The translations under genes were made by a program, and so were the position numbers. Source: a virus. Taken from it: a DNA stretch of 64,000 bases. Positions 26,893 through 64,000 of the stretch are shown one piece after another; positions within the stretch are counted from its first letter, which is position 1, and every line of letters starts with the position of its first letter. Location of the stretch: IMG/VR virus record IMGVR_UViG_3300009008_000022, positions 17,459-81,458 of that record; one strand, 5' to 3'. The notes under the pieces were generated by a model. The model ran no database searches. It was not told the DNA's origin and was given only the letters and a program-made list of their open reading frames with translations.

Positions 26893-27978
26893 ATGACTGT
26901 ACTTTCCGATGCCGTGAAACTCGCGGCTACGTTTTCTGACACGAAAAGCCCACACGAGGGATACCGCGGCGTGCAGCTCCGGCCGGATGGCCTGTCGGCT
27001 ATTTGCAACGGCCGCGCGGTGACGGTGCGGCTGGACTTGGGAGAGGTGGAGGGCGTAGCCAACGCGACCGATCTCAAGCGCGCGGTGTCCGCCCTGGGCG
27101 ACGACGTAGAGCTAGAGGTTGACGGCAACATGCTGTCGGTCATTCGCGACGGTGGGCGCGGTGTGCTGTCTCTGCCCCTGCTGTCTCTGGCTCATGCGGT
27201 CAAGGTGCCGGAGCCGCCGGAGGATGCGACCTGGCACGAGGTGGAAGGGTGGGAGGCGGTCAAGCGCGCCTCGTGGTGCACAGGGTCCGACGTTAGCCGC
27301 CCCTGGCTTTGCGCGGTGCACCTTAGCCCGCTGGGCTGGGTTGAGGCGACAGACGGCCACGCGGGCGTGCGGGTGCGACTCGGTGACGTGCTGGAGGACA
27401 GCGGCGAAGTGGTGGCGGACCTGTCCAGCGTGTTTGGCTCTGGGATCTTGGTCCGGCCGGACGTGCTAGGCGGTGGGGAGTCGAGCAAGGCGCAGATCAC
27501 GAGGGAGAAAGATTGGCTATTCGTGCGCGGCCTGGGCGACGGCGGTGTGAGGGGAATCAAGGTGGTGGACAGCAAGTTCCCGGCGGTCCAGCGCGTGTTT
27601 GAGGATCCGCGCGACTATCCCACCGTGAGCGTTGATCCCGCGGAGCTGCTAGACGTGGCGCGGGAGGCCGCGGTGGTGGGCGGCCCGGTGTCGCTGGGGT
27701 TGGAGGCGGGCATGGACATTTTGCACGTCGAATGCGAGGGGCCAGGGACCGAGGCGGGGCATTACAAGGGCGAGGTTGGCGTGGTGGGCATGGCCGGAGA
27801 TCACGAATTGGGGTGGGTTGCCCTGGAATCGCGCCTGCTGATCTCGGCTATCCAGGCGGCCGGAGAGGAAGTGATCAGGGTGGGCTTTAAGCTGGTGCCC
27901 AACGGATCACTTGAGCCGGTTTATCTGTCAGACGACAGCGGCGAATATGAGGCCGTGATCATGCCGATGAGAATGTAA
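26893..27978 (+). CDS. DnaN-like DNA polymerase sliding clamp
   Basis: A 361 aa protein, the length of bacterial DnaN. It shows repeated clamp-type beta-alpha units (ICNGRAVTVRLDL, ATDLKRAVSALGDD, DGNMLSVIRDGG, ATDGHAGVRVRLGD) and ends SGEYEAVIMPMRM, which matches the DnaN C-terminus (xVVMPMRL). The start at 26893 is taken because GGAGGGCGCC precedes it. It would encircle DNA and recruit partners through QLxLF peptides; fifteen candidate peptides occur elsewhere in the window. The match is by motif and length; divergence is high, so a search is needed. Confidence 0.75.
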   Translation: MTVLSDAVKLAATFSDTKSPHEGYRGVQLRPDGLSAICNGRAVTVRLDLGEVEGVANATDLKRAVSALGDDVELEVDGNMLSVIRDGGRGVLSLPLLSLAHAVKVPEPPEDATWHEVEGWEAVKRASWCTGSDVSRPWLCAVHLSPLGWVEATDGHAGVRVRLGDVLEDSGEVVADLSSVFGSGILVRPDVLGGGESSKAQITREKDWLFVRGLGDGGVRGIKVVDSKFPAVQRVFEDPRDYPTVSVDPAELLDVAREAAVVGGPVSLGLEAGMDILHVECEGPGTEAGHYKGEVGVVGMAGDHELGWVALESRLLISAIQAAGEEVIRVGFKLVPNGSLEPVYLSDDSGEYEAVIMPMRM

Positions 27979-27980
27979 CC

Positions 27981-28544: not shown

Positions 28545-28546
28545 CC

Positions 28547-30084: not shown

Positions 30085-30086
30085 AA

Positions 30087-30629: not shown

Positions 30630-30654
30630 GTTTAGCGGTACGCCGGCCGGGTCC

Positions 30655-30918: not shown

Positions 30919-30928
30919 GAGATAGACC

Positions 30929-35486: not shown

Positions 35487-35655
35487 ACCGCCACCGGTTG
35501 CCCCTGCCACGCCTGGCGAGCCCACCTGGCACAAGTGCACAGCCTGTGGGGGGCTGACCCTGGACCCGCGGCCTGGCACCTACTCCTGCCCCCGATGCGA
35601 CGGTACAATGGCAGAGGTGCCCGAGGATGAGATCAACCCGCAAGCTGCCGAATAA
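35464..35655 (+). CDS. Zinc-ribbon protein preceding terminase
   Basis: A 63 aa protein with a GTG start. CTACGGLTL and CPRCDGT (zinc ribbon), acidic end, Pro-rich N-terminus. Its 3' end overlaps the terminase start by 29 bases. It may be a terminase accessory by position only. Confidence 0.55.
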   Translation: MRQQPVYRPPPVAPATPGEPTWHKCTACGGLTLDPRPGTYSCPRCDGTMAEVPEDEINPQAAE

Positions 35656-37393
35656 CTGCCTACGCAGGCACGATCCACCGGTACGCACGCCCGTTGTGGG
35701 CGGCCAAGTCCAGCGGTCGCTCAAGGACGTAATCAGCGAGATCAAGGATCAGGGCGAGCTGCAATCTTCGCTCACGTCCGCCACAACTCAGGCCGCGCTG
35801 CATGAGCACATGCTCGTGGCGAGCTGCGCTTACTTCGCAGAGGCGACGATCAGCGGTCCTAACGAGGAGCCTTACAACGGCCGGTTTCTAATCGCAAAGC
35901 ACCACCTGGCATGGGATGAGGCGCTGCTCAGCAACAAGAAGCTCTGCATTCAGGCAGCTCGTGACCACGGCAAGAGCCACTTTTGGGCGGTCGCTTTCCC
36001 AATCTGGCTTGGCGGGTGGCGAATGCCTGGCGGCCTGGGCTATATGTTCAGCGCGAGCCAGGAGCTTGCCGAGGAAAAGCTGGAGCTGGTCAAGCGCGAG
36101 ATCAAACAGAACGAGGCGCTGCATTGGCTGATACCCGAGAGCGGTGAGCGGTACTGGTCAAAGCGGGAGATCCGGCTGAGCACCGGAACCATCATCCGAG
36201 CCCGCGGTTGGGGCGTCCGCGTCCGAGGCGGCCACCCTCAGTGGATCATTGCAGACGACGTGTTAGACGACGACTGCTTGTATTCGGAAACCATCCGGCG
36301 CCGGTCGGTTGAGTACTTCTTCAGCGTGCCCGTCAACATGGTGGTGCCGAACGGCTGGCTCGTCGTGGTCGGTACGCCGTTTCACTTCGCGGACCTGTAC
36401 CACAAGATCGCGGAAACCGGGAAATACGCCTGCTTAACTTTTGCCGCCCTGGACGGCGAAGATCCGCTATTCCCGCAGCGGTACAACGCAGCTCGCTTGC
36501 AGGACAAACGAGAGGAGATCGGAGAGATCCGGTTTGCTCGCGAGTTTCTGTGCCGGCCGCTATCCGATGAGGCGTCCCTGTTTCCGTCGCACCTGTTTGA
36601 AGGTGACGAGGTGCGCGTGCCGTACCGCCTGGGCATGGGCGCGGACCATTGGGAGGAGCGAAACATGCTCCGGTACACCGGCGTTGACCTGGCCTTTTCC
36701 GCCGAGACTGGCGCGGACTACACCGTGATCATCACGATTGCAGTAGACCCGCACGGCAACCGGTGGCTGGCAAACATGCGCAGGGGCCGCGGTTGGGGCT
36801 ATTCCAGGCAGATCCAGGAGATGAAAGAGGAGTACGCGCTCATGCGGCCTGATATGTTCCACATCGAGGCCAATCAGGCTCAGCGCATCCTGGGCGATTC
36901 AATCGCAGCTCAGTCCATTTTGCCCGTCCGGCTTTTCTTCACGGCCGGCGCTCAGCCCAAAAAGCCCTGGACCCGCGGCATGACCAGCATTACCGCAGGC
37001 AAGCACAGCCTGGACCGCGGCGTACCGAGCTTGAGGCTGGCATTCGAGCGCAAGAAGTGGCGGATCCCGCGCGGTGACGCGCACGCCATTGACATGACCG
37101 ACACCTGGATCGCGGAGTTTAATTGCATTGCCTACGAAAACGGCAAGGTTGAGTCCGTGGGCGAGCATGACGATTGCGTGATGGCTACTTGGATGGCGGA
37201 CACCGCAGCTCGCATGGGCGAAGGTGTTACGATGGTATTCGGAGGAGAGGAAGCAGAGCCGGAAAATGTTGATCCAGACGCGCCCGAAGCGGAGGATCTA
37301 GACTACTTCGGGCTAGGTGAGTACGATGCTGGGGAGGAACAACCCCCGCAGTACAACCTGGGAAGCCTGATCGGAGACAGAACAGGAGAGTGA
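35627..37393 (+). CDS. Large terminase subunit (DNA packaging ATPase/nuclease)
   Basis: A 588 aa protein. ATPase: Walker A-like ARDHGKS (111-117), Walker B WIIADD (206-211), coupling VVGTPFH (247-253). Nuclease: YTGVDLAFS (350-358), HIEAN (412-416), EHDDC (513-517), with metal-binding acids. Packages DNA into the prohead and cuts it. Acidic C-terminus. Start at ATG 35627 inside the previous gene. No small subunit is certain; 25628-26335 is a weak candidate. Confidence 0.92.
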   Translation: MRSTRKLPNNCLRRHDPPVRTPVVGGQVQRSLKDVISEIKDQGELQSSLTSATTQAALHEHMLVASCAYFAEATISGPNEEPYNGRFLIAKHHLAWDEALLSNKKLCIQAARDHGKSHFWAVAFPIWLGGWRMPGGLGYMFSASQELAEEKLELVKREIKQNEALHWLIPESGERYWSKREIRLSTGTIIRARGWGVRVRGGHPQWIIADDVLDDDCLYSETIRRRSVEYFFSVPVNMVVPNGWLVVVGTPFHFADLYHKIAETGKYACLTFAALDGEDPLFPQRYNAARLQDKREEIGEIRFAREFLCRPLSDEASLFPSHLFEGDEVRVPYRLGMGADHWEERNMLRYTGVDLAFSAETGADYTVIITIAVDPHGNRWLANMRRGRGWGYSRQIQEMKEEYALMRPDMFHIEANQAQRILGDSIAAQSILPVRLFFTAGAQPKKPWTRGMTSITAGKHSLDRGVPSLRLAFERKKWRIPRGDAHAIDMTDTWIAEFNCIAYENGKVESVGEHDDCVMATWMADTAARMGEGVTMVFGGEEAEPENVDPDAPEAEDLDYFGLGEYDAGEEQPPQYNLGSLIGDRTGE

Positions 37394-38381: not shown

Positions 38382-41300
38382 ATGCCTATTTGGCTAAAAC
38401 AACCGCCGCAGCCCGCGCCGATAATCCAGGCGAACAGCGCCTTGCTCACCATGCGCCAGGCAGAGCGCACGCCACCGGCCAGCCGCGGTGAGTTTGGGAA
38501 CATGAAGCAGGCCAACAGTGTGCGTGACGTGCTGGACGGGCTAGGTCTGGGGATGGATCTTGAGCGCGCCCTGGGCGAGCGCGTTGAGCAATGGCTGGCC
38601 TGTCGTACCCAGGTTGAGATCATGGAGCGCGCACGGCACGATCTGGCCGGAGCTGTGGCGGATCCCTACGTCCGGCGCGAGATCATGGGCCGCGCCATGA
38701 ACCTGTGGCTGCGCACCGTGCAACCGGCCGAGCGGGCGCCGAACCATGGGACCATGATCATCAAGGCCCAGGCTGCGCAGTTCGCACCGGACAACCGGCG
38801 GCGGTGGGGAGGTGGGAAGCCCTACGGCGGGCAACGTCCGCCCTTGAGCCGGACGGTGACAGGACAGCCGAGCGGTGGAGGGTGGGAGGAAGTAAAGAAC
38901 AGCGCCCATGGAGGTTGGCGCAGGCCGGACGGCCGCGGTGGTTACGAATATTGGTATCCAGGGCAGGGCGGCCCCGGTGGCGGCCCTGGGGGAGCTGGGG
39001 GCGAAGCCAAGCCTCACCCGAATGAGGGCCAGGGCAAGGGCGATCCAAAGCCACCTGGCGTAAGGTGGGCACCTGTGCCGCACCATGCGCCGGGAACATT
39101 CCGCCGGCCAGCCGAAGATCATTCCGCGGGCGGGCCAGCTCACGCTTCACGCATGGAGGCGCAAGGGATTGCCTCAGAGCCGCACCGCGGGGCAGCGGAG
39201 GGGGAGAGTCAAGGCAACGAAACCCAGGGCGACAAGCCCGCAGAATCAGGAAAGGACTCCGGCATCCCGCCAGAGCTGCAAGCGCAGCTCGCCCAGGCCA
39301 TTGAAGCCTACGGTATGGACGCGGTGAAAAAGGGGCTGGGGAGCGTGACAGAGGCCGCGGCGAAGGCGGCCGATGAGCAGTACCAGGCCAAGGCCGCGGA
39401 GCTGGGGAAACATGAGACAGTCCAGGCCGCGGTAAAAGAGCACTTCGGCGGCAAGCTGCGCAGCAAGCCGAGCGAGCAAGAGGTTAAACAGCTCGCAAAA
39501 AAGCTGGGCAACGATCCCGAGATCCGCAAGCTGGCTGAAACGGCCATGCAGGGCGCCGATGGTGCGGTGGTGGACGCGATAGCCCAGGCCGCGGTGGACG
39601 CAGCCCCCAAGGCCGATCCTGGCCTGGCTAAAAAGCTCCTGGTAGGCGCCAAGGTCGCAGCCAAGGCAGCTCTGCCGAGCGCGGCGTTTGGTTTCGTGGA
39701 CAACTTCATGCTGTACCTGGCAGGGGCGAGCATTGACACCATGATCGCAGCCATGGGTTTCGGCGCCGCGGTGGTGGCCGGCCTGGGCAACGCAATCAGT
39801 GATTCAGTGGGCGAAGCCGTGGCTGACAAGATGGAGCGTTTCCTCGACAAACTGCCAGGGCTGAAAGAGGACGAGAAGGATGTTCTGACCCCGGAGCAGC
39901 GTCAGAAGATCGAGAGCAAGGCTAAGGTCGCGGGCGTGTTTGTTGGCGCGATCATCGGCATGTGCCCGTTGCTGGTAGGGATCGGGTTTGGGGGAGCGCC
40001 AGCCGCCAAGTCAGAACGGCTGGTATTTGCCGGCGGCCGGTTGCTGCTCAAGAGCGAGCCGGACCCGTTGCCCGCCCTGGACGGAGCGCCCGAGCTGGTG
40101 TTTGTCATGGTGGACACCGAGCCGCGCGACGGCCTGTTTCTGGTCAAGGGAGCGGGGCACAAGTACCTCAGACGGATCCGCAACCCGAGCCCACCGCCCA
40201 ACTGGCGCTATCTGTACAAGTACCCAACCAGGAAGGGTTTGGTACACGACGATCACCTCGTTGAAGGGGCGAAATTCAAGGGCAAACACGGCGACCTGGA
40301 GGGCCACTTTGAAGTAACCGGAGTGGTCAAAAAGAAGGGCAAGCACGTTATCGCGCTGAAGCACGACGAGTCCGGCAAAACGATCTACGTTCACCGCAAG
40401 GACATTCAGGGAATGCTCACCCGCTATCACAAGGATGCGGGCACGCATAAGGAGCCGCGCAAGCGCAAGCCCAGGGCGCCCAGGGCGCCGGCTAAGAGCT
40501 TTCCCGAGCCGGACAAGAGCAAGGCAACCGAGGGCACCTACAGCGGCGAGCTGCCGAAGATCGGGCTCAGGGACACTCACGCATGGGAGGAGATGAAAGG
40601 CTTTGCTGACGATGAGCAAGCCGCGCGGGAATTGCTGGCGAGCTGGGACACGCACGGCCAGGAGTACGGCCTGATACCGCAGCCCAACGGGGTGATGATT
40701 ATGCGCCGGACAGCTCGCACCGGCAGCAAGGCGGTGAAAGAGGGCGCGTCTACCGTGGTGGCGTTCAAGGGCGACGGCAAGATAGAGCGCCAGCAAGGCG
40801 AGTACATGGTCATGGAAATGAGCGAGCTGATCCCGAGCCACAAGCCAGGGAGCTTTGCGCCGGACCCGCGCTACCCCGATGGTGTTCAGGAGCGCGTTTA
40901 CCACGACGATCCAAACGAGCGCGCGAAGGTGGAGGAGATCGCCCGCGGCCTGGATCCTTTTTTCGTGATCAACACCAATAACGACGGCGTTGGAGGGCCG
41001 CCCGTGATCACTCCAGACGGGATCGTGCTAGGCGGCAACGGTCGCACCATGGGGATCATGACGGCATACACGCACTACCCGGAGAGCGGGCAGAAGTACA
41101 AGGATCACCTGGCAAGCCAGGCCAGCGACTTTGGTTTCAGCTCGCATGACATTCAGGGCATGAGCCAGCCGGTGCTAGTGCGGCGCGTGGCGGTGGACGC
41201 GAATAACACGCAGAAGGCTCGCATGTGGGCGCGCGTGCTGAATGAGCCGTTGACGCAGGGCATGGACCCGCGCACCGAGGAAGTTGCGGTCGCGAAGAAC

Positions 41301-52205: not shown

Positions 52206-55200
52206 GTGGGCCAGCAACAGCAACTTGGATTTGACTTTGGCGGCGAAAAAAAGCGCGTCAAGGTACTGAGCGCAGGCGGCGGCCTTGACTCCTGGGCAAT
52301 GTGGCTCAGGGCCAAGGCGCGCGGGGAGCTGCCGGATCTGGTTATTTTTGCGGACGTGGGAGATCCCGAGGGCAAGCACCCCGCGGAGTGGCCGAGCACC
52401 TACCAGCACTTGAGGGAGGTATTCCGGCCGGATGTTGAGGCGCAAGGCGTTGAGTTTAAGTGGCTGACCGCCGAGGACATACCCGTTCGATCCCACCGAA
52501 AGAGCTGCAAGAGTTGCGGGGAGCAGCACCCGGAGGGGTTTGACAGCCTGTATGCCTATCTCCGGCACATGCGAAACCTGCCAACTGGCTCGTCAAAAAT
52601 GTGCACCAGCGCGGGCAAGGTGGAGCGGATCGGCCAGTGGGTTGAGGACCGATACCCCGACGTAGACGAGATCGAAATGTGGATCGGGTACGGCGCAGAG
52701 GAAACCGGCCGCCTGAAGAAAAACAGGTACGCCCAGGGCCAGGGGCGGCGCGTCAACCGATACCCGTTGATTGAAGAAAAGCTCTGTCGGGAAAAAGAGC
52801 TGGTGATTGCCATGGCGAGCGGGCACCCCGTGCCGCGCAAGAGCGCGTGCGTTTACTGCCCGATGAGCAGCCGCGGTGACTTTCTCACGCTGCTTAAAGA
52901 GCAGCCCAAGATGTTCCAAATGACGCTGGACATGGAGGAAAACTCAAAGCTAACCGAAGCCCGACGCAAGCGATTGCGCTACTCCGGCACCGGCGAGCAT
53001 ATGCCGAACTTGCTTGAGTGGGTCACGAACACCGGCCGGTACGAATTTACGCCAACCGGACGCCGGACCAAGCCGTATATCTCCAGCCGAGACAAAGAGG
53101 ATTGCCCCTGTTGCGGGAACAAGAAAGCCAGCAAGGCGACAGGCTCAGACTACGCGCACGCTGGCACCGGCCGCGAGATCCCGGTTGACGTTACAGAGCT
53201 GGACGCGCCAGGGCACGTCATTGCGATCCATGTGGACAAAAAGACAGGCGAGCCATACGTCGATCACAAGCTCAATATCCCTTACATGGAGGAAGCCCAC
53301 GGCCCGATCACGCCGGAAACGCCGATCATAAACTACGGAACCAAGCCGATAGTGGGCCTGGAAACCACGTTTACGCCCCACATCCTGTACGTTGGCCCAC
53401 GGGGCGGCCGGTGGGCAGACCCGAAACACCGGATACATTGGGATCCGAAGGTGCACGGAACGGTGACAAGTCAAACCAGGCGGATAAAGAAAGCCGAGGT
53501 GATGCTCAAGGGCGGCAAGTTTCCAATCGGGACAATCCGCACCTGGCGGGACGGCAAGCGGTATAGAAAGGTCAGAGAGGGCCAGTGGCAAGAGGTAGCG
53601 CCAGCTCGCCAGGCACAGCAGCTCGATCTGTTTGCGGCCATGGATTCGCGCGTTACCGAAAAGGACCGCGAGCCGATTTGCAGCCGGCCGCCGCCGGTCA
53701 GTGTGCCACCGGAGATCAAAGACGCCCTGGACCGCGGCGGATACCTGATTATCAACAGCTCCGGCGGCAAGGACTCGCACGCGCTGACCTACGCCCTGGC
53801 GACCTGTCCCGAGCTGGCGGCCTACAAGGACCGCATGATCGTCTATCACGCGGACCTGGGCAGGGCCGAGTGGCCGGGAGCTGGTGCCAAGGCAGAGGAG
53901 ATCGCCAAGCAGTTCGGGTTGCCGTTCGTGAAGGTCAAGCGGGACGCGAGTATCAACCGGGAGACAGGCAAGCGGGAGGTGTGGGAAGGCGACATGCTAA
54001 CCCACATGGAGGAGCGGGCAGCCTGGCCTAGCATGACAACGCGAATTTGCACGTCCGCCTTAAAGACAGGCCCGATCTGGAAAGCCCTACGGCGCCGGTT
54101 TTCCAAGGAAGGCGTGCCGATTGTTTCCGCCCTGGGCGTGAGAAGGCAAGAGGGCGAAGGCGACAAGGTAAACGCGGGCAGCCGGTGGTTTGCAGAGGAG
54201 TGGCACCAGGGCGGCGACTTTGGAACAAAATCAGTCAAGGAGCCGGTGCGCCTTGAGGTGCGCGAGGTATCTCACGAGCTGGCGCCCTGGCCTAGCCCGA
54301 GCAAAAAGGATCTCCGCGCGGTGAAGCGGGGGACAGTAAACCGGTCTGTCAAGCGGGAAGCCTACGAATGGAATCCCCTTGTGGATTGGGATCTGTCGCA
54401 CGTTTGGGGGGCCACGCGCGAGTCCGGCGTGGATCGGCATTACGCCTACGATCTGGGGTCCAGCCGGTTGAGCTGCTTGTGGTGTCCGTTGTCCAGCCAG
54501 GCGGACAAGGTAGCCGCAGCCAAGGCCCACCCGGAGATATTGCGCCAGTGGCTTGACGCTGAGAACAAAATGCGCGCCACGCATGAGCAGCGCCGAGGAT
54601 TTTGGGCAGAGCACATAGACCGCGGCCAGGTTGAGGGCGGCATGGAAGTAACAGAGCCGAAAGACGGCGGTGTGCCCCTGTATGCGTTCGACGCGGCCAG
54701 AATGAGCCAGGCCGAGATCGTGGATATGAAGCGCAACGGGGGGAAGTACAGCAAGAAGCGCGGGACCGTCGAGATCCCCAAGCGATACCTCAAGCCGTTT
54801 CTGGAGTACGGCACGAAGGGCAACCAGGGCGAGAGCTTGCTTGCCTTAATGGCCCGGTTAGGCGTCACGCTGGAGAAGGCAGCCAGCGATCCGGCATTCG
54901 TGCGAGAGTTGGTCAAGCGAGCACGCGAGCACGGCCGCCAGATGGACCGCTACCAGCTCGCAGTCGAGCGGGTGATAGAGGTTAAGGACCGCGTTGCAAG
55001 GGCCAACGGCGCCACCAGAGAGCGCCTGTTGCGGCTGTATCAGCGGGAGATGGATCAGCTTGCCGGCATTGGCGCGCAGCTCAAGGGCTCGCACCCGTTC
55101 CCCTCGTCCGGCGAGGGCATAGCCAGGGAGCAGGCCGCGCGTAAGTCGCTGCTGGACCGCGGCCAGGCCGTAGCAGCTCGCATGGAGGAACGGATGGAGA

Positions 55201-57104
55201 AGGCGCGCAAGGCGCCAGAGAATCAGCTTGGGTTTGACTTTAGCAGCCATGAGCCGAAGCCGGCAGCCAAGGCAGCCAGAGCGGCCAAGCCGACCGGCGG
55301 CGAGTCGCACGCGCAGCTCTTAGGCATGGGCTGGCGCCCGATTGAGCACCCGCGGGGAGGCAAGCACGGCTACTTTAAGATCGTGGGCGGCAAGAGGCGG
55401 TATTACTACCCTGACTTTGTGCCACACGGGCACCACGGGCACCGGCCGCCGCCAACCGCCACAGACGGAGAGGAGTTGTTTAGGACCAAAGCCGCGCGCT
55501 GGTATGAGGATAAAAACGGCGTGCTGTTGGTAGTAGATCGCGATCCTTTCTATGATCCACCGCGCGGTTACGGCGTTTATCGGGCGAAGCCGATACCCCA
55601 CAAGGACACGCACCAGCTCAGACGACACCGGGGATTCTCTTTTCACCCCACGGCCGGAGAGGCGCAACACGCCCTGTCAATAAAAGCCGAGCGCGAGGGG
55701 TGGCGACACGTTCCCATGGACGAAATAAAAGAGGCGGCGGAAGCCAGGGCAAGGCCAGCGCCGAAGCCGAAGCCGAAGCCGGCGCCAGAGCCAGAGCCCC
55801 GGCAGGCCAGCCTTGCTTTTTCTCCAGGCGAAACGGTGGAGGTTGCACAGGCGACCTTTACGCCCAAGCGGGTGGGCAACACCATAGCCGCGGTGCGCGG
55901 TGAGGTGTTTCACGCCCTGGGCACGTCCGGCAATCAGTGGGAGGCGTTGATCCCGGTGGACTACGCCGATGATGGCAAGGGCGGTGCGTTCCCGGTTTAC
56001 AAGATGCCGAGCGGGTATCAGCTCGTTGACACGCACCTGAGATCGGCACACGCGGCGGGGGTGGACGGCACGAGCTGTCAGATATGCGGGACGCGGATCA
56101 AGAATGTTTGCCATATCGTGCACCACGACAAACGGATCCGGTTGGAGGTGGGCAGCGAGTGTGTTCAGAAGTTTTCCAACGCGGAAATGCCACAGCAGGC
56201 CCAGGCCGCGATCAAACTGCTCAAGATCAAGATCAAGCCGGAGGAGTTGCCCCACATTAACGAGCTGGCAGAGCGCGGCGTACCGATGGACGTGGCCGTT
56301 GTTCGCGCCAGGGCGCGCAGCGCGGCCGGCCGAGCTTGGGACAAGAAGCACAGCCCGCCCACCGCGGAGCAGGAACAGTGGTGGAGCACCATCGGCCAGG
56401 GCCAGCTAGAGGAAGCGCGCCGCGGCAAGCGTGGGGGCGGCTATGTGGCGGATCACCTGTATGAGCGGCTAATGCACCCGGCGCACGACGCACCAGGCAG
56501 CGGGCACAACGGCCTGGGCTGGCACAATTCCAGTTGGTCACGCACCAACCGCGGCGGCCGGTGGGAGTTGCACGAGGGGCTAACGCTGGCGGAAAACTAC
56601 GATGAGGCCCGCGCCGCGGCCATGGAAGCCAGAGAGGAGAAGGCCGCGATCAAGGCTTATCCCGAGCTGATCAAGTGGGCCACGATCCTGAAAGAAACCC
56701 GCGGTCACAAGCTCACCGATGCGCAGCGCGCGGAGATCCGCCAGGCGCACGACGCCGCTACAAAGTCCGGCGAAACCAGAGTGCCAGCCCAGACGGACCA
56801 TGATCGGCTAGTGGGCCTAAACGCCGTGGCAAAGCGCCGCGCCCAAGTGGCCTGGGATGATGAGCACGAATACCCGCGCCGTACCAATGAGGCCAAGGCC
56901 GCGCGAAACGCCTTGGAGGACTACTTTGAAGCGCAGGATAAGCTCCGGTCCTACACCGACTATGGCTATAGCCCGCCGGACGCCTTGAAGTATCGAGCCA
57001 GCGGCGAGTCAATCACGCGGTTTAGATACCTCGACGCGCTAGGGCCGAATGAGCGAGAATACTACCGGCAACGCTTGAAAGAGGCTGGTTTGGAGCTGAA
57101 ATGA
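52206..57104 (+). CDS. Polyvalent protein with two PP-loop domains and zinc finger
   Basis: A 1632 aa protein, GTG start directly after the previous TAA. Begins with QQQLGF (52215-52232). PP-loop domain 1: SAGGGLDS (22-29), CVYCPMSS. A small WYP variant (VGPRGGRWADP) near 53390. QLDLF at 53619-53633. PP-loop domain 2: SSGGKDS (518-524), RICTSALKTGP, CLWCPLSS, the canonical PAPS-reductase/DndC-type pattern. Then QLGFDF (55224), WYP variant (YYYPDF), QASLAF (55803) and a zinc finger CQICGTRIK...EVGSEC (about 1291-1320), known from other phage polyvalent proteins. Helical C-terminus. The two PP-loop domains differ in sequence, so they need not have the same substrate. ATGA overlap with the next gene. 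Confidence 0.75.
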   Translation: MGQQQQLGFDFGGEKKRVKVLSAGGGLDSWAMWLRAKARGELPDLVIFADVGDPEGKHPAEWPSTYQHLREVFRPDVEAQGVEFKWLTAEDIPVRSHRKSCKSCGEQHPEGFDSLYAYLRHMRNLPTGSSKMCTSAGKVERIGQWVEDRYPDVDEIEMWIGYGAEETGRLKKNRYAQGQGRRVNRYPLIEEKLCREKELVIAMASGHPVPRKSACVYCPMSSRGDFLTLLKEQPKMFQMTLDMEENSKLTEARRKRLRYSGTGEHMPNLLEWVTNTGRYEFTPTGRRTKPYISSRDKEDCPCCGNKKASKATGSDYAHAGTGREIPVDVTELDAPGHVIAIHVDKKTGEPYVDHKLNIPYMEEAHGPITPETPIINYGTKPIVGLETTFTPHILYVGPRGGRWADPKHRIHWDPKVHGTVTSQTRRIKKAEVMLKGGKFPIGTIRTWRDGKRYRKVREGQWQEVAPARQAQQLDLFAAMDSRVTEKDREPICSRPPPVSVPPEIKDALDRGGYLIINSSGGKDSHALTYALATCPELAAYKDRMIVYHADLGRAEWPGAGAKAEEIAKQFGLPFVKVKRDASINRETGKREVWEGDMLTHMEERAAWPSMTTRICTSALKTGPIWKALRRRFSKEGVPIVSALGVRRQEGEGDKVNAGSRWFAEEWHQGGDFGTKSVKEPVRLEVREVSHELAPWPSPSKKDLRAVKRGTVNRSVKREAYEWNPLVDWDLSHVWGATRESGVDRHYAYDLGSSRLSCLWCPLSSQADKVAAAKAHPEILRQWLDAENKMRATHEQRRGFWAEHIDRGQVEGGMEVTEPKDGGVPLYAFDAARMSQAEIVDMKRNGGKYSKKRGTVEIPKRYLKPFLEYGTKGNQGESLLALMARLGVTLEKAASDPAFVRELVKRAREHGRQMDRYQLAVERVIEVKDRVARANGATRERLLRLYQREMDQLAGIGAQLKGSHPFPSSGEGIAREQAARKSLLDRGQAVAARMEERMEKARKAPENQLGFDFSSHEPKPAAKAARAAKPTGGESHAQLLGMGWRPIEHPRGGKHGYFKIVGGKRRYYYPDFVPHGHHGHRPPPTATDGEELFRTKAARWYEDKNGVLLVVDRDPFYDPPRGYGVYRAKPIPHKDTHQLRRHRGFSFHPTAGEAQHALSIKAEREGWRHVPMDEIKEAAEARARPAPKPKPKPAPEPEPRQASLAFSPGETVEVAQATFTPKRVGNTIAAVRGEVFHALGTSGNQWEALIPVDYADDGKGGAFPVYKMPSGYQLVDTHLRSAHAAGVDGTSCQICGTRIKNVCHIVHHDKRIRLEVGSECVQKFSNAEMPQQAQAAIKLLKIKIKPEELPHINELAERGVPMDVAVVRARARSAAGRAWDKKHSPPTAEQEQWWSTIGQGQLEEARRGKRGGGYVADHLYERLMHPAHDAPGSGHNGLGWHNSSWSRTNRGGRWELHEGLTLAENYDEARAAAMEAREEKAAIKAYPELIKWATILKETRGHKLTDAQRAEIRQAHDAATKSGETRVPAQTDHDRLVGLNAVAKRRAQVAWDDEHEYPRRTNEAKAARNALEDYFEAQDKLRSYTDYGYSPPDALKYRASGESITRFRYLDALGPNEREYYRQRLKEAGLELK

Positions 57105-60100
57105 GCAAGATAGACGATCTGGTAGCACGCGGGGAGGAACGGCTGAGCAAGATGATGCAGCTTGGCTTGTTTGACAACCTGGGCGGATCGTCGGGAGCTG
57201 GGGAGCATTTGCCCGACTCCCATACCAGCAAGCCGAAGCGCGAAGCGCGCCACCAGGGCGAAACCAAGCCGGACAAGCCGAAGCGCCCGCCAGGGCCGGA
57301 CCTGAGCACGATTCACGAGGTTGACGCCCACCGCGACAGCGCGCAGCAACACCGCGCGCACGCGCACCGCGCCAAGCTATCCGGTGACGCGGAGCTGTCA
57401 GACCTTCACCGCGCCGCGGCATTTCGGGCGGATCTCGTGGCAACGTACCTGGACGCTGGCAAGCCGGCCGCGGAGGTTGAAACCGCCAAGCAATCCGTTG
57501 CGGAGGCGGTAGACACCATCGGCCGGTTAGAGGCGAGCCGTAAAGCCGAGGCCGAGCATGAGCGCCAGCGCCAGCACCGCGAGAAGCAGATCAGCGGCGC
57601 CAGGGGGCACGCTTCTGCTCTGGTCAGCGCCGGCAAGGCCACGCCGGAGGGGCTGCGCGTGCTGGCCCGTGGAATGGAGGATAGGGGCTGGAAACACGCC
57701 GCGAAGGAATACCACCGCGCCGCAGACCAGTTGCAAGGCGCGCAGGCTACGGTGAGCCAGGCGCAGCTCGCAACAATGCTGGACGAGGTTACTGAGCGCC
57801 GGCCTGGCGGGCGGGTGGTTAAGCCAGGGACAACGCCGGAGCAAGCGGCGAAAGCTGCCGATGCCCTGGAGTCAATGCTGGACGCTAACCCGGTAGAGAA
57901 GCGCACAAGGGCGGACGGCAGCAAAAACTGGCAAGAGACAAACCAGCACGCCGTACTGCGAGTTATCGTTGAAAAGCTCAGGGAGCACGCAAGCCCAGGG
58001 CCAGAGGTCGCAGAGGCAGCCAAGCCGGCCGCGGCGCCAGCTCCGGCCAGCAAGCACCACGCTGGCGAGCCGCCCCCCGGTGGAGGTTGGCGCCGGACCA
58101 CGAAAGGGTGGGCCAGAGGCCGCGGCCAGCGTTACGAATGGAAGCCGGTGGAGTGGTGGAAAGAGGGAGAGGGGAAAGCCAAGCCAGCGGCCAAAAAGAA
58201 GCCCAAGCCACAGAGGGAGAGGCCCGATGTTCGACCCGAAGAAAATGATCAGCCCCGAGCCGCCCGAGCTGCCGGAGCACCTGAAGCTAAACCCGAGCCC
58301 GAGTCTGAGGTATCAGGTAGACGGCCTGGACGATCTGCCGGAGGACGAGCAACAGCAGATCCTAGCCATGATGCGGACGCCGGAGAAGCCGAGCACACCG
58401 CGCCCGACCTAGCCGCCCTGGAGGCCGGCGCCCAGGCGCAGCAAGGCAAGCGCCAGCCGACCGGCAAGAAAAGCGGCCCGTCTATCCAGCTTGAGGCGGA
58501 CCTGTTGCCGCCGATCCCAGATGAGGCGCGGATCAGGCCGGACATTGCACCGTTCCCTGTGCCGCAGGGGCCGATCAAGGATCTGTACCCGCACCAGCGA
58601 GAGGCCGCGGAGCGGATCCTGGCGAGCTGGCGCGAGCGGGACGGCTGCCTGATTGCCGATGAGGCCGGCCTGGGCAAGACGCTATCCGGCGTTGCCGCCA
58701 TGATGCAGCGCGGAGGGCGCCGGAACCTGATCGTGGTGCCTACCAAGGGCAAACGCGGCCTAATGCGCCAGTGGCAGGATGAAGGGCTGGCCCTGTACGG
58801 AGTCCGCGGCAAAGGGAAGGATGAGCTGGACCCGGAGATCGATGGAACATGGCTCATTGGCTACAATGATCTGTATGAATCCGTGGCCGCCGAGGATGAG
58901 TTTGACGACTGGCACGTCGTTGACACCGACGCGGTTGAGGAGATCCTGAATCGCTACACGCACCGCCGTGCGCAATGGTGGAGCGCCGGCCTGGCCGACA
59001 GGGCAGCCGAAGCGATCAAGGATGAGATCGAGTGGCAGGAATGGGGCACCCGCAAGAACAAAGAGGAGATCGCAGAGCTGCGCCGGAATTGGGCCGATGC
59101 GGTTGAGATCGCGAAGCGGATCGAAAAGCGTTACCAGGGGGATTACCCGGACGGTCTGCCACAGCGAGTCATGTTCCAGGGAATGTCAGAGCTGGCGACA
59201 GAGGTGCAAGAGGACCGTCGCGCAGCTCAGCGGGAGAAGCTGAAAGGAAAGCGGACGCGGCGGTTGCGCAAGGCTCTGTTTGACGGCCAATTTGACACGA
59301 TCTTGTTTGATGAGTGTCACGGCATGGTCAACCAGAAAACCACCACCGCCAAGGCGGGCAAGCTGCTACAGGACCAGGCCGGCAAGGTGCTTTACATGAG
59401 CGCCACGCCTTACACCTACATTCGGGACATGAGCTACCTCAAGCGCCTGGGGTTGTTTGAGCCGGAATTTAACGAGGACAAGAACAGGCTGGAAACCTCA
59501 GACGAGGCGTTTATCCGGTGGGTTGTTTCTCTGGGCGGCGAGCCGTCCGAGGGGTGGGTTGCAGACCCGAAAACGCCCAAGGCCAAGGTCGCGGTGGCGG
59601 CCAAGATGCACACCGAAGGGTCCAGAATCAAGCGCGTGACCAGCCTTGAAGGCACGCGATCCATGTTCCACATGATGCCGCAAGAATCTCTGTCGGAGGA
59701 CGCGCAGAAAACGCTGGAGATCGGCGGCAAGGTGTTTGGGATCATGGAGCGGTATTGGAGGAGCCTGGCCGGCGCGCACTACAAGAACTGGAGCCGGCAG
59801 TACTTGGAGACACAGAAGGTAGACGCCGCGGTTGCCATTGCGCGGCGCGAGCTGGAGAAAAACCCCAACGCTCAGATCGCGTTCTTCACCTCGTTCAAGG
59901 AATCGGACCACGGCCATATCCGCAACGCGCCGGACGGGATCCGGCGCCTGGCGGAACGGGCCGCAGAGGATCCCGAAAAGTACTTTTGGTTCGACCCCGC
60001 CCAGGCCGCGGAGGACATAGCCGAGATAGAGGCGCTGATACCGCAGCTCCCGCCCGTGCTGCGCGGGCCGGACGGTGAAAACGAGGCGATAGTTGACCGC

Positions 60101-63100
60101 CTGACCCGAGAGTTTGGAGGGCCGAAGAAGGTCGCTCAGATCCACGGCCGGACCAGCAAAAAGCCGGAGGTTGAACAGGCCCGTTACCAGAGCGGAGAGG
60201 CCAAGGTCGCGGTCTGCACCATGAGCAAGGGCGGCACCGGGATCAGCCTGCACGACAAGGTTGGCAATGCGCCGCGGATCCAGATCAACCTGTCCCTGCC
60301 CTGGACGGGCAATGAGTTTGATCAGGTTAAGGGCCGGTCGCACCGCCTGGGCAGCAAGAGCAACACAGACATTCACTGGATGGTGGGCGACCACCCGACC
60401 GAGCAGCACAACGCCGCGATTTGTGGCAAGCGCCTACAGGCCGCGGGCAGCCTCACGATTGGCAACCAGGATCTTGCCCAGGACAGCGCGCACCTGGCGG
60501 ACTTTGACGAGGGGGACGGCGCCGGCGCGGATCTGACCGACGATCCCGCCGAAGCCTATCGGATCTCGCACGGCACAGACCGAATGATCCGAGAGGGAGA
60601 GGGCACCGACGAAGGCAAGGAGCAGCGGTGGCACTTTCGGAAAGTGGCCGAGCGACACCGGGCAGGCGGCGACGTTGTTGGGGAGGTGACAGAGCACTTG
60701 GAAGCGCAGCGCAAGCGCAAGACAGAGCTGGAAGCGCGCCGAGCATCCGAGCAGCTAAAGCAGGCCGCCGGCATTAACACGCATTGGGATCCGACCGCGC
60801 ATGTTTGGGTATTGGATCGTAACTCGCTGAATTGGAGCCAGAGCGAAGCCCTGGATCGGTTTATCGCGCGCAAGACAACCAACGCGCGGAGCTTGTTTTA
60901 CCTGCATGAAACCCACATTGACGCCCACAGTATGCCCGCCCTGGCGAAGATCATGGAGGCGGACAAGCATCCGGTGGATATGCGGGACGTGGTGCAAAAA
61001 GCGGTGAAGGCAGAGCGCGCGATCATTGACACGATGCGCGGAGCCACCCGCAGGCGTGACATACGAATGGAGCCGGTAATTAACGGCGACGGGGATCTGG
61101 AGTTTCACCTGTCCGGCAACAGCTTTGCGTATCAGCACGGCATGGAGGCGGCCGGCGCCAGCCTGGTAGACATGGGCGACGGCGACGTGCGGCGCTGGAC
61201 GTGGGTTGTACCGGAGCAGGCCGCGGCCAACGTGATGGAAAATTTCGAGCGGGTTGACCAGGAGCGCGACTACCCGCACCGCTTGAACACCTACGGCCGC
61301 GCCAGGATCGATGAATACAGGGAGATGCACGGCATGGATAAGTCAGAACGGCTAGAGGCTCTGTTTGCGAGGGGCAACGCCTTGCGCAAGGGCGAGAGTC
61401 CTCCGAGTGGATTCACGCAGATCACGGGCAGCGCCAAGGGCGGCTGGCACAAGAAAGAGGGGAACCATTACGTCTACTGGTATCCCGGCCAGGGCGTTGT
61501 CAGTTCGCGCCACAGCAGCGACGTGCACGCGGATCACTCCAAATTGCCGGAGGGGTTTAACAAGATGCCCCTGGAGGACCGCGCGGAAATGACCGCGCAT
61601 TGGGATCACGTCCGGCAAAACCTGGCAGAGTACAAGCCGCGCACCTACCACGGCGATACGCAGGCGGCCGTGGTGGAACATCTGGAGGACATGCGCCGAG
61701 CTGGCAACCTCGTGCCGTCGAATGCTGCCCTGGCAAAGAAGATGATGCTCACGCAGCTCAAGCACGGCCGCGCCGCGGGGATCCCTGAGCCCGCCCTGGC
61801 GAAGCTCATGGAAGAAAACGTCCGCAAGCTCTGTATGCAAGAGGTGGAGAGCGTTGGGCGCACCCTGGGAGATCACGGCGTGCGCCACCTGGCGAAAAAC
61901 GCCGAGCAGACCGACCGGATCTTTGACGCGGTAGTCGCGGGAGGCGGCCAGATCACGCCCATGGAGCGGTTCATGGCCCATCAGGTGCACATCGATCACG
62001 ACATGGGCTACACCATCGGCGCGATTGCCAAGGGCGGGTTTGCCGTTGCGGACAAGTACCACCCGCAGGCCAGCGCCGTGCTGGTGAGGCAGCAGGCGGA
62101 CAAGTACAAGGCGCTGTTTGGCGACAAGTACCAGGCGTTTCACCAGGCCGTGCTAACCCACAGCCGCAGCGGCGTGGACTGGAAAAACGATCCGTTTACC
62201 AGCGCGATCCGGCTGGCCGATAACACTCACCTGTTTGCGGACAAACTGCCCGAGGTGTTGATGGACTCCCGCCTGGGCTCCGAGGTGATGGTAAAGATCA
62301 AGCTGGCCGCCGAGCTGATCCCGCCCACCGTGGAGGTGCGAAAAACCGACCCGAAAACCGGAAAGGTCAAGGTGAAAATGAAGCGCACCGAGCAAGATAA
62401 GGCGCGCTTTAATGCCCTGATTGGGAGCATTCGAGGCCAGATGCACGCCGCGGTGGACGGCAATTCGGAGCTGCCAAAGTCGATCAAGGCTGCGCTGAAA
62501 AAGGCCATCGGTGAGATCGGGGAGCTTACGCCCAAGTTTCTGGTGTCGCGCCTGGCGGGACGTGATCCACAGTTCCGGTTTGAGGGCGGCGACATGCACG
62601 TCACGATCCAGCAGAGCGCAGCTCGTGAAACCATCGGGCAAGTGTTTGGCGACGATCAGCCCGACAAGCAGTTCCGCAAACTGCTGGAGGACTACGACAC
62701 GAGCCCCGAATCGGCGTTTGACGCCAAGCCGCCGCCGCCGCATGTCCAGGTGGGCAAGGACGGCAACGGGCTGTTTTTCCAGTGGCAGAGCGGGGAGTCC
62801 GAAAACCAATCCCACCCCGTTGAACAGCGCCACCGGGAAGTGATGGAGCGCGTTAAGGGGGAGTTTGAAAGGGTCAAGGCCATGCCGGCGGGCAAGGCAA
62901 AGCAGGCCGCCCTGGACAAGTTCTTTGCGACGGACGTTGCCAAGGCGCTGCGCCAAATCTGGACGCTGATCAAGGCGGACAAGGCGCGCGAGGATGAGCA
63001 AGAGCAGGAGCCGCCCAAGGGCAAGGGCGAGGCCCCACCGGACAAGCCGGAGGGCGAGGAGCCGCCGCCAGAGGGCGAGGATGAACAGGATCCGCTGGCG

Positions 63101-63727
63101 TCAGAGGACGGCGAGCCTGACCAGGGCGAAGGGGAGGACGGCGGCGAAGGGGAGGCGGAAGGTACGCTTCACACCACGCCGGCCGATGCAGCGAAGCTCA
63201 TAGAGCGCCAGTTTCCACAGGTGAGCGTGCACGAAACAGCGGACGGTGAAGGGTTGCACCTGTACGGCCAGGGCGCCGATCAAGCGGTCCATATGATGCT
63301 GAAAGAGGGGTGGGCGGTGAGCCAGGGCAGCGACGGGTCCATGACCATCCGGCCGCCTGGCGCCACCATTCCAGAGCACGAGCGGTGGGATAACACGCAC
63401 CACCCGCACGCCCAGGACCAGGGGCCGGAGATGGAGGATGAACAGGAGCAAGGGCCGCCGAATGGACAGCCGCGGCCAGCGCCAGGTAGTATGGGCAAAA
63501 GCTACGCTACGGCGGATTGGCACCAGTCCAGAGCCGATTATCTGTCCAGGTTAGGCGGCGAGATGATGTTTAAGAGCGAATATCACGGGTTTGTGAGCCA
63601 GCTCGATCATCTTATTGGCGCCCACCGCAACGCCGCGGAACAGCTCGCCAACGGAAATAGCCGAGAGGCGCGGTACTCCAGTTTCCATGCGCTAACCCTG
63701 GACCGCAAAACCATTCGGAGCAAATGA
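57101..63727 (+). CDS. Polyvalent protein: SNF2-type helicase and HD phosphohydrolase
   Basis: A 2208 aa protein, ATGA overlap. QLGLF (57158-57172) at the N-terminus, then a helical region, a degenerate module (58066-58165), a low-complexity part that includes the nested ORF 58227-58412, and a helicase: Walker A EAGLGKT (521-527), DECHG (737-741), MSATPY (766-771), KGRSHRLGS (1076-1084). The short insert with DECH and the extended motif VI suggest an SNF2/Strawberry-notch-like enzyme. WYP module at 61390-61515 (YVYWYPGQG). HD domain about 1590-1720: HGVRHL, HIDHDMGY, THS and LADN, which give H...HD...H...D metal ligands. Acidic linker and a small C-terminal domain. HD enzymes hydrolyse nucleotides; cyclic dinucleotides or dNTPs are possible targets. 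Confidence 0.8.
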   Translation: MSKIDDLVARGEERLSKMMQLGLFDNLGGSSGAGEHLPDSHTSKPKREARHQGETKPDKPKRPPGPDLSTIHEVDAHRDSAQQHRAHAHRAKLSGDAELSDLHRAAAFRADLVATYLDAGKPAAEVETAKQSVAEAVDTIGRLEASRKAEAEHERQRQHREKQISGARGHASALVSAGKATPEGLRVLARGMEDRGWKHAAKEYHRAADQLQGAQATVSQAQLATMLDEVTERRPGGRVVKPGTTPEQAAKAADALESMLDANPVEKRTRADGSKNWQETNQHAVLRVIVEKLREHASPGPEVAEAAKPAAAPAPASKHHAGEPPPGGGWRRTTKGWARGRGQRYEWKPVEWWKEGEGKAKPAAKKKPKPQRERPDVRPEENDQPRAARAAGAPEAKPEPESEVSGRRPGRSAGGRATADPSHDADAGEAEHTAPDLAALEAGAQAQQGKRQPTGKKSGPSIQLEADLLPPIPDEARIRPDIAPFPVPQGPIKDLYPHQREAAERILASWRERDGCLIADEAGLGKTLSGVAAMMQRGGRRNLIVVPTKGKRGLMRQWQDEGLALYGVRGKGKDELDPEIDGTWLIGYNDLYESVAAEDEFDDWHVVDTDAVEEILNRYTHRRAQWWSAGLADRAAEAIKDEIEWQEWGTRKNKEEIAELRRNWADAVEIAKRIEKRYQGDYPDGLPQRVMFQGMSELATEVQEDRRAAQREKLKGKRTRRLRKALFDGQFDTILFDECHGMVNQKTTTAKAGKLLQDQAGKVLYMSATPYTYIRDMSYLKRLGLFEPEFNEDKNRLETSDEAFIRWVVSLGGEPSEGWVADPKTPKAKVAVAAKMHTEGSRIKRVTSLEGTRSMFHMMPQESLSEDAQKTLEIGGKVFGIMERYWRSLAGAHYKNWSRQYLETQKVDAAVAIARRELEKNPNAQIAFFTSFKESDHGHIRNAPDGIRRLAERAAEDPEKYFWFDPAQAAEDIAEIEALIPQLPPVLRGPDGENEAIVDRLTREFGGPKKVAQIHGRTSKKPEVEQARYQSGEAKVAVCTMSKGGTGISLHDKVGNAPRIQINLSLPWTGNEFDQVKGRSHRLGSKSNTDIHWMVGDHPTEQHNAAICGKRLQAAGSLTIGNQDLAQDSAHLADFDEGDGAGADLTDDPAEAYRISHGTDRMIREGEGTDEGKEQRWHFRKVAERHRAGGDVVGEVTEHLEAQRKRKTELEARRASEQLKQAAGINTHWDPTAHVWVLDRNSLNWSQSEALDRFIARKTTNARSLFYLHETHIDAHSMPALAKIMEADKHPVDMRDVVQKAVKAERAIIDTMRGATRRRDIRMEPVINGDGDLEFHLSGNSFAYQHGMEAAGASLVDMGDGDVRRWTWVVPEQAAANVMENFERVDQERDYPHRLNTYGRARIDEYREMHGMDKSERLEALFARGNALRKGESPPSGFTQITGSAKGGWHKKEGNHYVYWYPGQGVVSSRHSSDVHADHSKLPEGFNKMPLEDRAEMTAHWDHVRQNLAEYKPRTYHGDTQAAVVEHLEDMRRAGNLVPSNAALAKKMMLTQLKHGRAAGIPEPALAKLMEENVRKLCMQEVESVGRTLGDHGVRHLAKNAEQTDRIFDAVVAGGGQITPMERFMAHQVHIDHDMGYTIGAIAKGGFAVADKYHPQASAVLVRQQADKYKALFGDKYQAFHQAVLTHSRSGVDWKNDPFTSAIRLADNTHLFADKLPEVLMDSRLGSEVMVKIKLAAELIPPTVEVRKTDPKTGKVKVKMKRTEQDKARFNALIGSIRGQMHAAVDGNSELPKSIKAALKKAIGEIGELTPKFLVSRLAGRDPQFRFEGGDMHVTIQQSAARETIGQVFGDDQPDKQFRKLLEDYDTSPESAFDAKPPPPHVQVGKDGNGLFFQWQSGESENQSHPVEQRHREVMERVKGEFERVKAMPAGKAKQAALDKFFATDVAKALRQIWTLIKADKAREDEQEQEPPKGKGEAPPDKPEGEEPPPEGEDEQDPLASEDGEPDQGEGEDGGEGEAEGTLHTTPADAAKLIERQFPQVSVHETADGEGLHLYGQGADQAVHMMLKEGWAVSQGSDGSMTIRPPGATIPEHERWDNTHHPHAQDQGPEMEDEQEQGPPNGQPRPAPGSMGKSYATADWHQSRADYLSRLGGEMMFKSEYHGFVSQLDHLIGAHRNAAEQLANGNSREARYSSFHALTLDRKTIRSK
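58227..58412 (+). CDS. Nested out-of-frame ORF, 61 aa
   Basis: In the third frame within the 2208 aa gene, ATG 58227 with AGGGAGAGG seven bases upstream, stop TAG 58410-58412. MFDPKKMISPEPPELPEHL and DGLDDLPEDEQQQILAMM look like real protein, and third codon positions are mostly G/C here, as in the rest of the genome. In the frame of the large gene the same stretch uses many A/T-ending codons (CGA, GGA, GCT, GCA) and is low-complexity Arg/Ala/Pro. Either a nested gene or the trace of a compensated frameshift. Confidence 0.45.
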   Translation: MFDPKKMISPEPPELPEHLKLNPSPSLRYQVDGLDDLPEDEQQQILAMMRTPEKPSTPRPT

Positions 63728-64000
63728 TGAGCCACGAGCGACGGCGCGAGGAGCTGCTAGAGAAGGCGCGGCAAAACCGATCTGACAAGCAGCTCAGCCT
63801 GTTTGGGGTGGCCGCGGTAAACGAGGGGGAGACAGGCGACCTGTTTAGCCAGGGCGCCGGCCGCGGCCTGAGCGCGCCGAAGCCCAAAGCCAAGCCCAAG
63901 CCCAAGCCCAAAGCCGAGCCCAAGCCCAAAGCCGGAAAAATGACCGTCACCCTGGCGGCAGCTCCAAACCACGACTTTGGCGCCGGATCTCCAGAGGCCA
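63724..64000 (+). CDS. Next polyvalent-type gene (3' partial)
   Basis: ATG at 63724 overlaps the previous TGA; a second ATG follows at 63727. N-terminal helix then QLSLF (63790-63804), the canonical clamp-binding pentamer, followed by DLFSQG and a Lys/Pro repeat (KPKAKPKPKPKAEPKPKA). The rest is outside the window. The design (helix, QLxLF, linker) repeats that of the genes at 44712 and 57101. Confidence 0.6.
   Translation, partial: MMSHERRREELLEKARQNRSDKQLSLFGVAAVNEGETGDLFSQGAGRGLSAPKPKAKPKPKPKAEPKPKAGKMTVTLAAAPNHDFGAGSPEA

Follow-up and report, generated by a model that had tools for sequence, protein, structure and literature searches.

Few phage proteins are as large or as poorly understood as the polyvalent proteins, including in how their many enzymes reach their site of action. 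The 64,000-nucleotide stretch of viral DNA analysed here (the window) raises this question directly, encoding both a DnaN-like clamp and a series of giant multidomain proteins in which short peptides resembling bacterial clamp-binding motifs are repeated: could these peptides hold polyvalent enzymes on a sliding clamp?

The sliding clamp gene and the giant genes

The clamp gene (26893-27978, plus strand) encodes 361 aa from its ATG and ends in EAVIMPMRM, consistent with the terminus xAVIMPMRM reported by an earlier, sequence-only reading of this DNA; the longest ORF at the locus begins upstream, at 26869. A full-length match (residues 10-369, E=1.2e-24) to the phrog_947 'DNA polymerase processivity factor' family supports the DnaN-like identity proposed in that reading, and because PF00712 and PF02768 of Pfam both fell below threshold, the clamp is considered divergent. 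An AlphaFold model of the clamp was weak and of low confidence (pLDDT 48); the 50 PDB matches listed for this weak model by Foldseek were beta clamps, the best with a TM of ~0.44. Comparison with the E. coli clamp revealed identity at 13 of 18 peptide-pocket residues, against 55 of 345 aligned residues overall (16%). The pocket residues changed are N320 and Y323 in subsite II, R176 and L177 in subsite I, and V344; the absence of the first four weakens the clamp-docking explanation that we favour below. Judged by these comparisons, the gene is a divergent DnaN-type clamp with its peptide pocket largely kept. Phage-borne members of the same clamp family include a 'DNA polymerase III subunit beta' of M. 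abscessus prophages (phrog_947; ~25-29% identity), which, unlike the present clamp with its MPMR pocket motif, ends in IGIRG and lacks MPMR.

The giant genes, all on the plus strand, lie directly downstream of the terminase large subunit gene (TerL; 35627-37393, plus strand; phrog_38, E=5.6e-54). Gene 81 (38382-42332; 1316 aa) carries a ddrB-ParB domain (PF18763, E=3.8e-21), and gene 82 (42332-44725; 797 aa) a PP-loop domain (phrog_424, E=1e-25 over residues 412-649) together with two GW...WEYWYP elements. These are followed by gene 83 (44712-49601; 1629 aa), with ParB-like and DUF3560 domains, and gene 84 (49629-52205; 858 aa), with a DNA methyltransferase domain (phrog_6263, phrog_799). Two PP-loop (PAPS-reductase-like) domains were identified in gene 85 (52206-57104; 1632 aa), where phrog_424 matches in two stretches (E=8.8e-49), the second domain spanning residues 503-797 and including a PF01507 match at 515-761. 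Gene 86 (57101-63727; 2208 aa) encodes a Strawberry-notch-like helicase (PF13872, E=8.1e-14; PF13871, E=4e-11), and gene 87 (63724-63999) is truncated by the contig end. Several unrelated enzymatic domains are therefore combined with domains of polyvalent type, an assignment based in this stretch on PF18763 in gene 81 and on the PP-loop, methylase and helicase domains of genes 82-86; PF18763 is also present in relatives, and PF18760 and N6_Mtase occur together in one protein of relative L070. In being giant and multidomain, with ddrB-ParB, ART-PolyVal, methylase, helicase and Strawberry-notch modules, these products resemble the polyvalent proteins described from phages and conjugative elements (Iyer et al. 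2017, PMC5512222).

Clamp-binding-type peptides in the window

The published bacterial clamp-binding consensus is QL(S/D)LF, with QLDLF the strongest known peptide, and motifs of this kind include those of Pol II (QLGLF), Pol V (QLNLF), Pol III epsilon (QTSMAF), Hda and others (PMC11139829). Fifteen peptides had been listed as fitting QLxLF or QxxLxF, and all were found in frame at the positions given. Three depart from these forms in detail: QSSLAL, which lacks the final F, QMSFF, with F at position 4, and QLGFDF, with F in place of L.

Within the giant genes, QTSLF (44585-44599) lies in the C-terminal tail of gene 82, while gene 83 carries QLDLF at residue 16 (44757-44771), 53 aa before a GW...WEYWYP element, and QTSLGF (46680-46697) in an internal linker. 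Gene 84 contains QASLF at residue 696 (51714-51728), QSSLAL (52047-52064), a weak and doubtful hexamer-like match, and QGSLF (52146-52160) in its C-terminal tail (residue 840 of 858); QTSLF, QTSLGF and QGSLF fit only a wider form of the motif. The N-terminus of gene 85 has QQQLGF overlapping a QLGFDF (52215-52238), immediately ahead of the first PP-loop domain, and QLDLF at residue 472 (53619-53633) similarly precedes the second PP-loop domain; farther along are a QLGFDF (55224-55241) in a linker 33 aa before a GW...YYYP element, and QASLAF (55803-55820) in a Pro/Lys/Glu-rich linker. QLGLF occurs at residue 20 of gene 86 (57158-57172) and QLSLF at residue 23 of gene 87 (63790-63804); gene 81 contains neither a QxxLF nor a QxxLxF peptide. 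The CBM form Q-aliphatic-x-[L/M]-[F/L], or its hexamer, is seen in both QLDLF peptides, QLGLF, QLSLF, QASLF and QASLAF. With N-terminal positions in genes 83, 85, 86 and 87, C-terminal positions in 82 and 84, and sites between domains elsewhere, the peptides do lie mostly in flexible linkers or at termini, as had been claimed, and the disorder score of their flanks is modestly raised (p ~0.04). The original list was incomplete, omitting for example the QLGFDF at 52221, which overlaps QQQLGF, and, within a PP-loop domain, the probable chance match QFGLPF at 53910.

Relative to shuffled sequences, these motifs are in marked excess. Across the whole called proteome (88 ORFs), QxxLF occurs 10 times compared with 1.85 expected (0/1000 shuffles), and QL[SDG]LF 5 times compared with 0.02 expected; the controls ExxLF, RxxLF, KxxLF, SxxLF, QxxFL and the reversed motif show no enrichment in the same proteome. 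The excess is confined to the giant genes: genes 82-87 (42332-64000) contain 7 QxxLF (0.46 expected), 4 QLxLF (0.022 expected) and 4 QxxLxF (0.47 expected), each with 0/500 shuffles, and the remainder of the record holds 3 QxxLF compared with 1.37 expected (75/500 shuffles). Counting QLxLF in shuffled proteomes, the check suggested alongside the original list, places the motifs of the giant genes far above chance. The peptides outside the giant genes, namely QGALF at the C-terminus of gene 25 (7318-7332, minus strand), QMSFF at the N-terminus of gene 51 (phrog_2693; 21434-21448, plus strand) and QIGLF in gene 55 (24154-24168, plus strand), are as a class indistinguishable from chance, and the fifteen peptides do not therefore form the single set originally supposed. 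QMSFF was also rejected as a conserved docking motif, being not retained in most relatives (QQLSLL in L002, none in L003 or phage I3).

At the nucleotide level, a recombination site or similar signal behind the repeated CAG...CTGTTT strings was considered and is not supported: the fuller strings are mostly in the sense frame, their codons vary, and the hexamer forms add one codon. Counting somewhat against the docking explanation, antisense reading frame 0 also contains 7 QxxLF strings, as codon bias permits.

Recurrence and conservation in related phages

Relatives gathered through the terminase numbered 67 after deduplication. They were looked at after the first matches, with a replication rule, applied uniformly, that selected proteins 900 aa or longer encoded downstream of TerL (28 proteins). 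In these 28 giant proteins QxxLF occurs 16 times compared with 2.8 expected, and QLxLF 5 times compared with 0.14 expected (0/200 shuffles for each), while the remaining proteins at the same loci show no excess (24 QxxLF, 33 expected). Furthermore, 22 of 25 motifs in giant proteins have S, G or D at position 3, which the search left unconstrained, compared with 4 of 27 in ordinary proteins. Motif position is kept between homologs of 27-63% identity; for example, QASLF of gene 84 aligns with QQQLF of its L070 homolog (27% identity), QLGLF of L070 with QLSLF of L071, and QLDLF of L074 with QFDLF of L076 and QLGLF of L073. At one aligned site a pentamer is exchanged for a hexamer (QFGLDF of L145).

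Some motif-bearing linkers are homologous among giant proteins, and the recurrence of motifs in relatives is due in part to common descent of linker modules. This might suggest chance and neutral copying, in which Q-rich disordered linkers are simply duplicated among the giants; such an origin is very improbable, given that within-protein and 40-residue-window shuffles yield almost no motifs, and that flanks and codons vary among the copies while Q, L and F are retained. Alternatively, the peptides might help to mark proteins delivered by the virion for packaging or processing, jointly with the nearby GW..IP..GGYRR..WEYWYP element. This would be in keeping with genes that directly follow the terminase and with the 10 of 27 motifs located at most 60 aa upstream of a GW..WEYWYP element (~5% expected). 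We regard this role too as improbable, if less so, since the residue preferences fit the clamp consensus, pentamers are replaced by hexamer variants, many motifs have no element nearby and several elements are without a motif.

Single-protein scans with the clamp, gene 85 and gene 86 found no close relatives, tblastn of the clamp and gene 86 in phages gave zero matches at 1e-5, and a DNA pattern for WEYWYP had zero matches in viral contigs. Among DarB, DdrB and DarA of phage P1, the sole match to Q..[LMF]F is one QGDMF, in DdrB.

Candidate clamp partners and roles

Taken together, these findings make it likely that the peptides of the giant proteins are docking motifs holding polyvalent enzymes on a sliding clamp. 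Of the tethering of methylase, PP-loop and helicase modules put forward from the sequence alone, what stands is that the peptides are of clamp-binding type, adjoin or lie between catalytic modules and recur in relatives; the tethering itself is a prediction. Through the beta-clamp-type pentamers (QLxLF) and hexamers (QxxLxF) in tails and linkers, each neighbouring module, whether methyltransferase, PP-loop enzyme, helicase or ParB-like, would dock onto a DnaN clamp, in its hydrophobic pocket, and be held at sites of DNA synthesis. A likely use would be to act on phage DNA as it replicates, for instance by modifying new strands or protecting them against host defence.

Which clamp would be engaged was considered from several directions. 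In relative G005 (98.8 kb, searched in full) the peptides are present with no detectable clamp gene, and the host clamp is therefore at least as likely a partner as a phage clamp. Among 62 loci of other clamp-bearing viral contigs there is no motif excess (19 QxxLF, 27 expected), such that clamp ownership alone does not predict the peptides, and their association with a phage-encoded clamp is loose. The record carries replisome-organizer-like and DnaC-like loader genes, with no PolIII alpha or Pol A found, from which it probably uses the host polymerase. If polyvalent proteins enter with the DNA, the docking partner would probably be the host clamp first and the phage's own clamp, where one is encoded, later.

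Alternatively, the main purpose of engaging the host clamp might be to attack host replication or take it over, the many motifs per virion competing with host polymerase and repair proteins for the clamp, and either stalling host synthesis or diverting the replisome onto phage DNA. The motifs of clampless G005, the probable reliance on host polymerase and the strength of QLDLF as a clamp peptide (PMC11139829) are compatible with this purpose, which we nevertheless consider unlikely, though not remote: a pure blocker would need no motif beside every enzyme domain, the phage provides its own clamp, and a known phage clamp inhibitor, Gp168 of Twort, uses the DNA channel rather than the peptide pocket (PMC11139829).

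If docking of the phage's own enzymes is correct, a conserved clamp-docking code would directly and testably answer how polyvalent enzymes reach their targets: they would act on DNA in the course of replication. Clamp-tethering, familiar from cellular repair, would then also apply to phage DNA modification and counter-defence, phage enzymes coupled to replication could be spotted by a simple motif, and one would have to ask whether the clamps of phage and host compete. In eukaryotes, DNMT1 is coupled to PCNA, a DNA-modifying enzyme riding on a clamp; the phage arrangement differs in both clamp and peptide, and has many modules per polypeptide. Contacts between transposases and the beta clamp provide a case of a mobile-element enzyme riding on the clamp (PMC4549789). 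The phage peptides share with bacterial clamp-binding motifs the pentamer or hexamer consensus, S, D or G at position 3, and placement in tails and loops, but whereas the bacterial motifs occur on polymerases and repair proteins, these putative docking peptides are repeated many times on polyvalent proteins of the injected type. We found no earlier report of such putative clamp-docking peptides in polyvalent proteins; clamp, DnaN and PCNA are unmentioned by Iyer et al. 2017 (PMC5512222), whose description is extended here by candidate docking peptides and by clamp fusions.

Such fusions, which count in favour of the docking explanation, were identified in two divergent relatives, G014 and G015, whose giant proteins contain no QxxLF and include some that carry a DnaN domain as an in-frame C-terminal fusion. 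More tentatively, and with somewhat less confidence than we would need to favour it, this phage group might use the sliding clamp as a platform on which a toolbelt of polyvalent enzymes assembles, reached through peptides in some phages and through DnaN fusion in others, coupling modification and protection of phage DNA to replication. Gene 81 shares homology with the N part of the G015 clamp fusion (45% identity, residues 587-688).

Putative clamp-binding motifs in the polyvalent-protein genes

The source IMG/VR virus record (81,458 bases; window at positions 17459-81458, right end inside gene 87) derives from a contractile-tailed phage, since a tail sheath, baseplate genes and a terminase are encoded in the window. 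Using 88 genes called by a codon-usage script and comparing motif counts with those in shuffled proteins, we identified 10 QxxLF motifs against 1.85 expected (0/1000 shuffles as high), with a similar excess when shuffling was confined to 40-residue windows (2/1000). Control motifs, with a different first residue or reversed order, were not enriched in the called window proteins. The excess is limited to genes 82-87 (42332-64000), where observed and expected counts were 7 vs 0.46 for QxxLF, 4 vs 0.022 for QLxLF and 4 vs 0.47 for QxxLxF; elsewhere in the window, QxxLF occurs 3 times vs 1.37 expected. All fifteen clamp-binding-like peptides listed by the sequence-only reading lie in frame at their positions. 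Given the counts outside this block of genes, the peptides at 7318, 21434 and 24154 cannot be told apart from chance occurrences; QSSLAL does not properly fit the motif.

Although the search constrained only Q, L and F, leaving position 3 free, 22 of the 25 motifs in giant proteins have S, G or D at this position, vs 4 of the 27 in ordinary proteins. Glycine here is shared with the clamp motif of Pol II, QLGLF. Serine and aspartate follow the published preference, QL(S/D)LF, and QLDLF, described in the same work as the strongest binding peptide (PMC11139829), occurs twice in the window.

Recurrence among terminase relatives

Single-protein searches for relatives returned no close match. Terminase alignment identified 80 viral loci at up to about 51-54% identity. 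In the nearer of these, the gene for the terminase large subunit (TerL) is followed by genes for giant proteins that share homology with segments of window genes 81, 82, 84 and 86. Applied to 67 deduplicated loci, a uniform rule (length ≥900 aa, encoded downstream of TerL) yielded 28 proteins (39,683 aa) containing 16 QxxLF vs 2.8 expected and 5 QLxLF vs 0.14, a replication, though not a blind one, as the rule was fixed after hits in some loci were already known. Control motifs were flat in these proteins, and the remaining 1286 proteins of the 67 loci showed no QxxLF excess (24 vs 33 expected).

In the alignments, motif position is kept between giant proteins while their linkers diverge. QASLF of window gene 84 aligns with QQQLF of viral locus L070 (proteins 27% identical); QLDLF, QFDLF and QLGLF of loci L074, L076 and L073 align with one another; and QLSLF of L071 aligns with QLGLF of L070, as does QLGMF of L071 with QMGLF of L069. 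The hexamer QFGLDF of L145 occupies the site of pentamers in other giants, a swap that a clamp pocket taking both forms would allow.

Clamp genes and clamp fusions

The proposed DnaN-like clamp gene (26893-27978) was borne out by a phrog_947 match along its length (E = 1.2e-24); Pfam clamp models fell below threshold, and the clamp is therefore divergent. When aligned with E. coli DnaN, it retains 13 of the 18 peptide-pocket residues given in PMC11139829 (R152, L155, T172, G174, H175, P242, R246, V247, V360, M362, P363, M364 and R365; changed are N320, Y323, V344, R176 and L177), vs 55/345 identities over all aligned residues. Its AlphaFold model was poor (pLDDT 48), and 50/50 of the Foldseek PDB matches listed were beta clamps. 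A profile built only from this clamp and that of relative G006 also gave a beta clamp as top PDB match, weakly (E = 0.002).

Among relatives, G006 possesses a separate clamp gene (27% identity, ending VIMPTRM) and three motifs, G009 a weak clamp candidate (E = 2.9e-6), and G005 motifs with no clamp gene detected across its full sequence. In G015, a 2116-aa open frame (L171:2792-9139; phrog_947; TIGR00663 E = 2.9e-5) carries a C-terminal DnaN domain ending IMPLRV; another assembly contains the identical frame, and its final 1030 aa are also present on a third contig. G014 encodes a similar fusion in a 1426-aa frame open at the contig edge (L172:3-4280; phrog_947), ending IMPLRM. Loci L205 and L206 also carry such fusions, which fall into two divergent sequence types in all. 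Of the three clamp domains, the fused part spans approximately the final two. The N-terminal portion of the G015 protein shows homology to window gene 81 (45% across 102 aa). Gene 81 (38382-42332) also contains a TMEM65-like stretch within its polyvalent protein (PF10507, residues 429-531, E = 3.6e-16). The giant proteins of G014 and G015 lack QxxLF, and an 835-aa G015 protein has an N-terminal QLPLVF; complementarity between fusion and motifs is suggestive only, with two sequence types.

Clamp ownership alone does not predict QxxLF peptides: in 62 loci, mostly drawn from the 56 viral loci of the clamp alignment (A2), there was no excess (19 vs 27 expected). Many viral contigs (L020-L023, L026, L041, L047, L049, L053-L065) encode short DnaN-like clamps of ~200-230 aa, perhaps two-domain clamps, most with TDGH-like and FPDYRRV-like motifs and without the MPMR end. 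In L019, a 116-aa open frame (11116-11463), starting at the end of a phage clamp gene, terminates exactly in QMELF.

Proposed tethering to a sliding clamp

The best reading is that, through these motif peptides, polyvalent modules become tethered to a sliding clamp. Their placement fits: one motif precedes each PP-loop domain of gene 85, another lies near the N-terminus of the helicase protein, and others lie in the C-terminal tails of genes 84 (methyltransferase protein) and 82 (PP-loop protein). The replication genes include a replisome-organizer-like protein, DnaC-like loader, RecT, exonuclease, methyltransferase and SbcC-like ATPase; neither Pol III alpha nor Pol A domains were found in the record, so the phage probably uses the host polymerase. 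Because polyvalent proteins are believed to be delivered alongside the DNA (PMC7824862, by the authors of the polyvalent-protein paper), the host clamp would be the first they could reach, with the phage clamp a later partner. The main rival is that the peptides capture or block host replication. For tethering, the most natural use would be coupling DNA modification or protection to replication. Less probable is a function in packaging or processing; in its favor, a ~29-residue element, GxGWxxIPxGKxGGYRRRxGxxWEYWYP, adjoins the motifs. Window genes 81-86 carry this element, for which no named family was found; one instance is at 42698-42787 (residues 123-152 of gene 82). Giant proteins of this phage and of its relatives have 1-3 copies each, often located 10-60 residues past a clamp motif.

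Each of the three components (clamp-binding motifs, phage clamps and polyvalent proteins) is already known; we found no report of their combination in open-licence literature, and the polyvalent-protein paper (Iyer et al. 2017, PMC5512222) mentions neither clamp, DnaN nor PCNA. Outside polyvalent proteins, Pseudomonas phage Dolphis gp104 (L007:15735-16976), a DNA methyltransferase encoded beside a PP-loop gene, carries a QQDLF close to the C-terminus that could be a host-clamp motif. In phage P1 DdrB (L204), a single QGDMF, resembling the Pol III alpha motif QADMF, lies in what looks like a linker (residue 355).
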